A stretch of 64,000 nucleotides of DNA from Halobacterium salinarum DSM 3754 (GTDB taxonomy: Archaea; Halobacteriota; Halobacteria; Halobacteriales; Halobacteriaceae), in NCBI RefSeq assembly GCF_008124605.1, contig NZ_VRYN01000001.1, positions 360,772-424,771 on the forward strand. Direction: 5' to 3'. This document shows, in pieces, positions 18,429 through 20,921 of the stretch (positions within the stretch are counted from its first letter, which is position 1; every line of letters starts with the position of its first letter). The translations under genes were made by a program, and so were the position numbers. The notes under the pieces are model-generated. The model saw only the letters and a list, made by a program, of their open reading frames with translations, searched no databases and had not been told where the DNA came from.

Positions 18429-18662
18429 ATGTTCCCCATCGACTACCACATCCTCGAATTCTACGAAGATCACGACATTCAGGCTTCGCCAAAGATTGTC
18501 GCCGCGAATATCGATTATGACCGCCAGTATACTGGTAGACGGCTGAAAGCACTTGCAGAAGCAGGACTATTCAAGCGTGAAGGAGACGGGATCTACTCTC
18601 TCAGCGACCTCGGTCGTGGCTTTCTATCTGGGGAAGTCGATCCAAACGAGCTTGAAGAGTAA
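18429..18662 (+). CDS. Winged-helix DNA-binding protein, 77 aa
   Basis: MFPIDYHILEFYEDHDIQ opens a compact winged helix: helix one (ILEFYED), helix-turn-helix with recognition helix DRQYTGRRLKALAEAG (about 30-46), and a wing GDGIYSLSDLGRGFL. The family is common in haloarchaea and related to phage phiH1-repressor-like regulators. It sits at the left edge of the AT-rich island, 80 bases before the AlbA_2 gene on the same strand, and could regulate that module. A perfect CCAGTATACTGG palindrome lies inside the coding sequence at 18533-18544. Confidence 0.8.
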   Translation: MFPIDYHILEFYEDHDIQASPKIVAANIDYDRQYTGRRLKALAEAGLFKREGDGIYSLSDLGRGFLSGEVDPNELEE

Positions 18663-18711: not shown

Positions 18712-18722
18712 AACTTATTTTC
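18712..18722 (+). promoter_or_regulatory. TATA-like element before the AlbA_2 gene
   Basis: AACTTATTTTC lies 21-31 bases before the ATG at 18743, the spacing of a leaderless haloarchaeal promoter. It marks the AlbA_2 gene and its partner as their own transcription unit, separate from the winged-helix gene upstream. Confidence 0.5.
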
Positions 18723-18742
18723 AAACAGCGGCGATCATCGGT

Positions 18743-19654
18743 ATGCAAGAACGACTCTATCCTAGCTCCGTAGATGAGTGGGATGTGGAAACCTTAGAGG
18801 GGTTGGTTGAACATAGCGTGGCTGAGGACCAATATCTCGAATACAAACAATATCTCAGGTATCCGGACCACAGAGAACCAGAGCCTTCGAAATCGGAGTG
18901 GAGAAAAGACATTGAGCGAGAATTTGCGGCCTTTGCGAACGCAAGTGGTGGGGTTATTCTATTCGGCATGTCAGACGATATTGAATATAATCCAATTGAG
19001 GAGCCCGAAAACGAGATTGGGAGACATGTCACACCATATATCAAGGACTGCACCCCAGTCCCGAAAATAGAGGTCTCAAATCCCTTACAGCCGTTTTCAT
19101 CTGATTCAGGAAGGATACTTGTAGCGGTCAGAGTTTACGAAGCAGAGAGAAAACCGATTTCCACATCTGACTCATCTTTCTATGTTCGGATTAATGACCA
19201 AAAGCACCCCATGAGTAGAGAACAGATTGAATCAATGTTTATTGAGGCAGACAGACGCCAACAAGCGATACGAAGTTTAGAGGTTGAGATAGCTCGATTA
19301 CGCTCCGTATACAAAGACCAGATAGAGGGCCTGCCAGATCTATCAAATGTCCCTCCGCTAAGTGCGGTTGATGAGTCGGGTATCAGAAACGCCCTGCAGC
19401 GAAATACCTATCTATTCACCAATGAAGATACGGAAAGTATAGTCGTGCGAGTAATGGAGATATTAGATGAAATTGCGTCATTGAAGCGATTATTTGAAGA
19501 AGGCACTAGGAATATGGGGAGAGTTTCCTTTAGAAGGTATGGAGATTTGAACGAACATATTCAAGAGAATCTGAAATCAAAAACCGAGCGCTTAATTGAG
19601 TTGTTCGAAATGCTCGAAGACCAAACACAGATTTCACATCCGGGCAGACGATGA
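18743..19654 (+). CDS. AlbA_2 (Schlafen-type) putative nucleic-acid-binding protein
   Basis: 303 residues. The N-terminal ~165 residues match the AlbA_2/Schlafen pattern: LEYKQ (32-36), FAAFANASGGVILFGM (61-76), a VTPYIKDCTPVPKIEV stretch and SSFYVRINDQKHPMS (144-158). The C-terminal half is helical with likely coiled coil (about 165-190 and 235-290). AlbA_2 proteins bind DNA or RNA and turn up in defence and regulatory loci. Base composition is far more AT-rich than the surroundings, with Ile, Lys, Asn and AGA codons, indicating recent acquisition. Its stop is 13 bases before the next gene. Catalytic activity is not evident. Confidence 0.82.
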   Translation: MQERLYPSSVDEWDVETLEGLVEHSVAEDQYLEYKQYLRYPDHREPEPSKSEWRKDIEREFAAFANASGGVILFGMSDDIEYNPIEEPENEIGRHVTPYIKDCTPVPKIEVSNPLQPFSSDSGRILVAVRVYEAERKPISTSDSSFYVRINDQKHPMSREQIESMFIEADRRQQAIRSLEVEIARLRSVYKDQIEGLPDLSNVPPLSAVDESGIRNALQRNTYLFTNEDTESIVVRVMEILDEIASLKRLFEEGTRNMGRVSFRRYGDLNEHIQENLKSKTERLIELFEMLEDQTQISHPGRR

Positions 19655-19667
19655 AATAGGTGGTAAA

Positions 19668-20087
19668 ATGATAATTCAGATATTGGTCGCAATCATTTCG
19701 GGATTCTTTGGTGCGCTATTGAACGAGTACCTGATTAGCCCAATCAGAGGGTTCAGGAACACCCGATTGAAGATATCTAAAGACTTAGTGAAGTACGGGG
19801 ATGTAATTGGTAACCCTGGGTCTCCTGAAGTCAGCCAAATATCTGAAGCAAAGACGGAGCTGAGGACAGATGCGGCAAAGTTGCACGCGATACGAGACGA
19901 ACTACCACGGCCTATATTCCACCTCCCATACATATTACCATCAGAGGAAGAAATCGAATCAGCGGAAAAATCTCTCATCAGACTTTCGAACACCGTCCAA
20001 GGGATAGATATTGACTCGAAAGATGATGTTGAGCTGGCTAATTCCGACCGTCAAGAGGTGAGAGATGGATTGGGTCTGAGCGGTTGA
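19668..20087 (+). CDS. Single-pass membrane protein partnered with the AlbA_2 gene
   Basis: 139 residues from the ATG at 19668, with a good ribosome site (AGGTGG, 19658-19663). One N-terminal membrane segment (MIIQILVAIISGFFGALL, residues 1-18) is followed by a basic stretch (RGFRNTRLKISKD) and a ~90-residue charged helical cytoplasmic domain. It is as AT-rich as the AlbA_2 gene and spaced 13 bases after it, so the two form an operon. I recognise no family. A membrane-anchored partner for a nucleic-acid-binding sensor fits a defence module, but this is inference. Confidence 0.72.
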   Translation: MIIQILVAIISGFFGALLNEYLISPIRGFRNTRLKISKDLVKYGDVIGNPGSPEVSQISEAKTELRTDAAKLHAIRDELPRPIFHLPYILPSEEEIESAEKSLIRLSNTVQGIDIDSKDDVELANSDRQEVRDGLGLSG

Positions 20088-20782: not shown

Positions 20783-20848
20783 ACGCCCAACACCCTACAA
20801 AGCGGCCGCTAAGTGTTTGAAAATGCGGGAAACGGGGTAAGTGTGTAG

Positions 20849-20921
20849 TGGGCCGGCGCGAATTCGAATCGCGGTTACGGCCACCCGAAGGCCGAAGGAT
20901 ACCAAGCTACCCCACCGGCCC
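20849..20921 (-). tRNA. tRNA-Pro (anticodon CGG)
   Basis: A 73-base cloverleaf on the minus strand. The acceptor GGGCCGG pairs with CCGGCCC, plus discriminator A. The D-arm contains GGGGTAGCTTGGTATCCT with A14-G15. The anticodon stem CGGCC/GGCCG holds loop TTCGGGT, giving anticodon CGG (20885-20887). The T-arm is CGCGA-TTCGAAT-TCGCG. CCA is not encoded and there is no intron. It decodes CCG, a frequent proline codon at this GC content. Confidence 0.95.

Follow-up and report, generated by a model that had tools for sequence, protein, structure and literature searches.

Two adjacent genes in an AT-rich patch of a haloarchaeal genome had been proposed in a first-pass annotation to form an antiviral module, in which a nucleic-acid-binding sensor acts with a membrane partner, and the question raised by this locus is whether the two genes belong together or happen to lie side by side. 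Gene A (18743-19654, + strand; 303 aa, stop codon at 19652-19654) encodes a single-domain prokaryotic Schlafen protein (SLFN_AlbA_2) with a helical C-terminal part, and gene B (19668-20087, + strand; 139 aa) encodes a protein with one N-terminal membrane helix and a helical domain, from a family without a Pfam model. The coordinates and spacing of the two open reading frames (ORFs) agreed with those first annotated: both are on the same strand, with 13 bases between the stop codon of gene A and the gene B start, which we place at the ATG at 19668 and not at the upstream TTG of the ORF listing (19596). The patch comprising both genes (18712-20087) has a GC content of 0.446, compared with a mean of 0.686 for the 64-kb window (the whole stretch of DNA that was analysed) and about 69% around it, and the lowest value for a segment of the same length elsewhere in the 64 kb, with the patch itself excluded, was 0.611. 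GC3 was 0.43 for gene A and 0.49 for gene B, but 0.91-0.92 for the nearby glycerol (glp) and pus10 genes. These values confirm that the base composition of the patch is far from that of its surroundings and is foreign.

The expression signals differ between the two genes. A TATA-like box (CTTATTTT; 18714-18721, + strand) is positioned approximately 26 bases 5′ of the gene A ATG, a similar box precedes most gene A relatives, and the gene A transcript is probably leaderless. A TATA-like box was also looked for at the usual distance upstream of gene B and none was found, whereas an SD-like AGGTGG sequence (19658-19663, + strand) precedes its start, so gene B is probably translated from the gene A transcript. 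The sequence suggests that the two genes are probably co-transcribed here. Elsewhere, a separate promoter-like box precedes most relatives of gene A, and likewise most relatives of gene B.

The close spacing on one strand, the signals at gene B that make co-expression likely and the similarly low GC content of both genes would suit a true two-gene antiviral unit, consisting of an RNase or sensor and a membrane anchor or effector and newly assembled in this lineage. The distribution of the two families argues against it. Among 392 haloarchaeal genomes, relatives of gene A (counted at E < 1e-15) were present in 10 and relatives of gene B in 8, and only this genome contained both; with 392 genomes, chance alone could produce a single overlap (P about 0.19), and 26 genomes of the family searched with both profiles agreed with this result. 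Six-frame profile searches revealed no gene B-like frame in 12 gene A neighbourhoods and no gene A-like frame in 8 gene B neighbourhoods, and no gene consistently adjoined the relatives of either gene in the neighbour lists. A conserved gene A–gene B pair is therefore rejected on the presence/absence and neighbourhood searches, and because the pair occurs in no other genome searched and each family occurs alone elsewhere, a newly assembled unit is very unlikely. The two-gene defence system of sensor and membrane partner is not supported: the families are not conserved together, the finding on which the first-pass annotation had itself proposed that the module would fall. We favour instead, with a probability of roughly 0.6, the reading that these are two independent horizontally moving genes, gene A encoding a stand-alone Schlafen RNase and gene B a separate mobile-element accessory.

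The position of the pair was noted earlier as being near a tRNA gene, and ARAGORN indeed identified a tRNA-Pro gene (20848-20921, − strand) downstream, 760 bp from the end of gene B. The tRNA-Pro/pus10 region was kept in 12 sampled genus relatives, in which the DNA beyond the tRNA 3′ end was widely different and contained neither gene A nor gene B. Across the genus, this 3′ flank is a variable hotspot, with different content in most species. Integration at tRNA-Pro through att repeats was considered and rejected, as a search of the 64-kb window found no duplicated tRNA-Pro 3′ end. No att repeat was found, and three relatives have similar flanking sequence in the first bases beyond the tRNA; we therefore regard the tRNA as the marker of a variable neighbourhood and not as a proven attachment site. 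In the 16-kb segments compared from relatives, the glycerol-gene side and tRNA-Pro were not adjacent. A small winged-helix protein is encoded on the other side of the pair (18429-18662, + strand; 50% GC; weak match to Pfam HVO_A0261_N, 0.0057); its gene probably belongs to the same foreign patch as genes A and B, and it was not conserved alongside gene A in the neighbour lists of relatives. A recombination-prone patch is likely to have collected the small winged-helix gene, gene A and gene B.

Gene A matched the Pfam model SLFN_AlbA_2 (PF04326) at residues 28-158 with an E value of 2.4e-16 and 60.7 bits (score cut-off, 25.3 bits), in keeping with its first assignment to the AlbA_2/Schlafen proteins. 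This was the only AlbA_2 match in its 303 residues, and the two tandem lobes that make up the RNA cleft of the mammalian-type Schlafen RNase are absent. Domain-model searches revealed no ATPase or winged-helix (wHTH) domain in gene A, PADLOC models matched neither gene A nor gene B at E values up to 1, and a single-sequence scan of genome collections with gene A gave no match. The predicted nuclease centre is an ExxxxExK motif (E28, E33 and K35; 18824-18847, + strand), the three residues of which were invariant in 12/12 aligned family sequences, taken from haloarchaeal genomes and plasmids and aligned over their length. In SLFN14, the catalytic motif has been described as E-x4-E-x-K (PMC12215978), and SLFN13 is killed by mutation of E205 and E210 (PMC5862951), with which E28 and E33 of gene A align in a profile match to 5yd0 (residue mapping by count). 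D78 (18974-18976, + strand), also invariant in the 12 sequences, is at or beside the third acidic position of the SLFN RNases; it is offset by one residue from SLFN13 D248 in the profile alignment, so that the position is ambiguous by one. A long helix or coiled-coil 3′ of the AlbA_2 domain (19217-19312, + strand; residues 159-190 in the structure model) carries DRRQQAxRxLExEI, near-invariant in relatives, and our guess from the model is that the protein probably dimerizes through this helical tail. The structure model is poor (pLDDT 45), and Foldseek with this low-confidence model returned the bacterial AlbA_2 protein 3lmm first, followed by mammalian SLFNs.

AlbA_2 proteins are often annotated as DNA-binding or regulatory. 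The possibility that gene A acts as a regulator that binds DNA or RNA, with a non-catalytic AlbA_2 domain and no nuclease activity, agrees with the classing of AlbA_2 as DNA-binding in a survey of prokaryotic Argonautes (PMC6299218) and with the title of the best Foldseek match, which gives no nuclease role; we consider it unlikely, because the ExxxxExK catalytic residues, needless for a pure binder, are strictly kept and no ATPase or winged-helix partner domain was detected. The conserved catalytic ExxxxExK motif and the conserved Asp close to the third acidic position lead us to read gene A as a metal-dependent endoribonuclease, beyond a mere binder, and a stand-alone Schlafen-type RNase is, judging from these residues, its probable identity. 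The sensor of the first-pass annotation was therefore correct in its AlbA_2 domain but undersold, as its catalytic motif indicates an effector with RNase activity. An antiviral role of gene A is plausible, with about even odds; "possibly antiviral" is thus tenable for gene A alone and not for a two-gene module.

Relatives of gene A were found in diverse settings: three are on large plasmids, integrases are near them in some genomes, a GmrSD/HEC-05 gene is near the relative in DL31 and DNA methylases are near that in Halorarius. In two genomes, relatives are beside an AAA/DUF6414 pair; at L037:7859-10440 and L038:7808-10362, DUF6414 and an IetA-like AAA ATPase follow the gene A relative and are convergent with it. 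Single AlbA_2 proteins with differing C-terminal domains are also encoded in viral contigs (L057-L066), with E-x4-D-x-K replacing E-x4-E-x-K in some; these proteins are only distantly related to gene A. The gene A neighbourhoods matched 83 PADLOC families in 64 proteins and the gene B neighbourhoods 123 in 42, and 78 control proteins taken from elsewhere in these genomes matched 67 families, with many generic helicases, ATPases and AAA proteins. Because control regions match many generic models too, the counts are not decisive as a sign of defence-island enrichment, least for gene A, and we describe the setting as variable and mobile and not as proven enrichment. Homologues of the two genes are not confined to housekeeping surroundings: relatives of both are often found in variable regions, next to integrases and to genes for restriction or BREX.

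The single N-terminal hydrophobic segment of gene B, followed by predicted helices, accords with the membrane helix and helical domain first described. Gene B matched nothing in Pfam, NCBIfam or PADLOC, no library model convincingly matched its aligned relatives, and its structure model was of low confidence. Relatives were identified in seven further haloarchaeal genomes and on one Vibrio plasmid, with motifs around NPG, P80, P91 and LSN in common, and a single-sequence scan of genome collections with gene B returned one locus only, already known. The Vibrio relative used as query revealed 211 plasmid records (203 from Escherichia) and phage D6. As a test of the family, a haloarchaea-only profile of gene B was run against bacterial and phage members and 1000 shuffled sequences; it recovered five bacterial/phage representatives with E values of 5e-5 to 9e-10 (best of 1000 shuffles, 0.53). 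The plasmid version of the family occurs in 230/5426 complete E. coli genomes, with 228 of its 232 places on plasmids, and the E. coli IncF version is near-identical across these carriers. The relatives at L143:3980-4405, L144:3992-4414, L145:4001-4465 and L036:5273-5746 are from IncF, phage-plasmid D6, Legionella and Vibrio plasmids, and D6 orf109 adjoins phd-doc.

Plasmid and phage relatives of gene B have replication, partition, toxin-antitoxin or transport genes as neighbours, and no AlbA_2 gene was among the annotated neighbours of the bacterial and phage relatives examined. In two related genomes of the same taxonomic family, the PriS-Gins51 replication genes are followed within a few bases by a gene B homologue (L051:4764-7216 and L052:6762-9335); a link of gene B to replication through PriS-Gins51 in these two genomes was rejected, as other relatives are without it. 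In one haloarchaeon, a homologue is near the BREX genes brxA, brxC and brxB (L048:6550-13193), and one other relative has a methylase with a restriction enzyme adjoining. The idea that the Vibrio relative is an integron cassette was discarded, there being no attC-like repeat array. The most likely function of gene B, in our view, is that of an accessory to mobile elements. A bolder reading is that gene B belongs to a cross-domain family, hitherto undescribed, of proteins that span the membrane once, are carried by archaeal islands, enterobacterial plasmids and phage-plasmids and act in competition or immunity between elements (through exclusion or through abortive infection at the membrane, for instance), and that it was recruited here into a Schlafen RNase operon; we regard this as a long shot.

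The plasmid and phage-plasmid D6 neighbours of gene B relatives, together with the distant AlbA_2 relatives of gene A in viral contigs, could also mean that both genes are passenger cargo, with a function that served an earlier mobile element (in exclusion, or in the maintenance of a plasmid or provirus) and is of no use to the present host. Both frames are intact, however, gene A keeps every family-invariant residue, and relatives of both genes also occur on large chromosomal contigs, which makes this explanation somewhat unlikely. In the preferred reading of two independent genes, both of which are ordinary island cargo, we suggest that genes A and B arrived separately and landed side by side in the variable patch near tRNA-Pro. 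The gene A protein, probably dimeric through its helical tail, would use its AlbA_2 domain as a metal-dependent endoribonuclease and may cleave tRNA or rRNA; the enzyme would be inactive until a virus or stress trigger, after which translation would stop. Gene B would by chance be read from the gene A transcript and would most likely be an accessory to mobile elements.

This strikes a false two-gene defence system off the list and provides two testable single genes instead. Gene A would extend stand-alone Schlafen-type RNases to haloarchaea, with a bearing on the age of this antiviral enzyme family; a full-text literature search with Schlafen and haloarchaea words together found no paper. Through gene B, an island gene of haloarchaea is connected with one that has no assigned function on about 200 Escherichia plasmids, and because this relative is on a tractable E. 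coli plasmid, it could reveal what the family does.

Compared with known systems, gene A has the AlbA_2 domain and the E-x4-E-x-K motif of the Schlafen RNases (SLFN11/13/14 C-lobe; PF04326), with an Asp nearby, and its topology agrees with theirs in the low-confidence model, whereas SLFN11/13/14 have two lobes with middle and helicase domains and gene A has one AlbA_2 domain and its own helical tail. Schlafen RNases have also been connected with BREX and with further defence loci of bacteria, and systems that contain them are reported to act against phages as RNase modules (PMC12839542 and the 2025 preprint by Taboada et al. that it cites). These defence-linked RNases have the catalytic domain and a mobile or variable DNA setting in common with gene A, but the BREX Schlafens carry a minimal histidine-kinase ATPase and a wHTH, whereas gene A has neither and stands alone. 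The nearest solved fold to the gene A model, the DIP2311-type bacterial AlbA_2 protein (PDB 3lmm), is larger and multi-domain (477-556 residues resolved), in contrast to the 303 aa of gene A, in which no further domain was detected. The IncF plasmid, phage D6 orf109, Legionella and Vibrio proteins (133-157 aa) have an N-terminal membrane helix and a profile in common with gene B, to which they are 16-28% identical. Gene A thus belongs to an already known Schlafen kind, and the cross-domain family of gene B is the more curious part of the locus.
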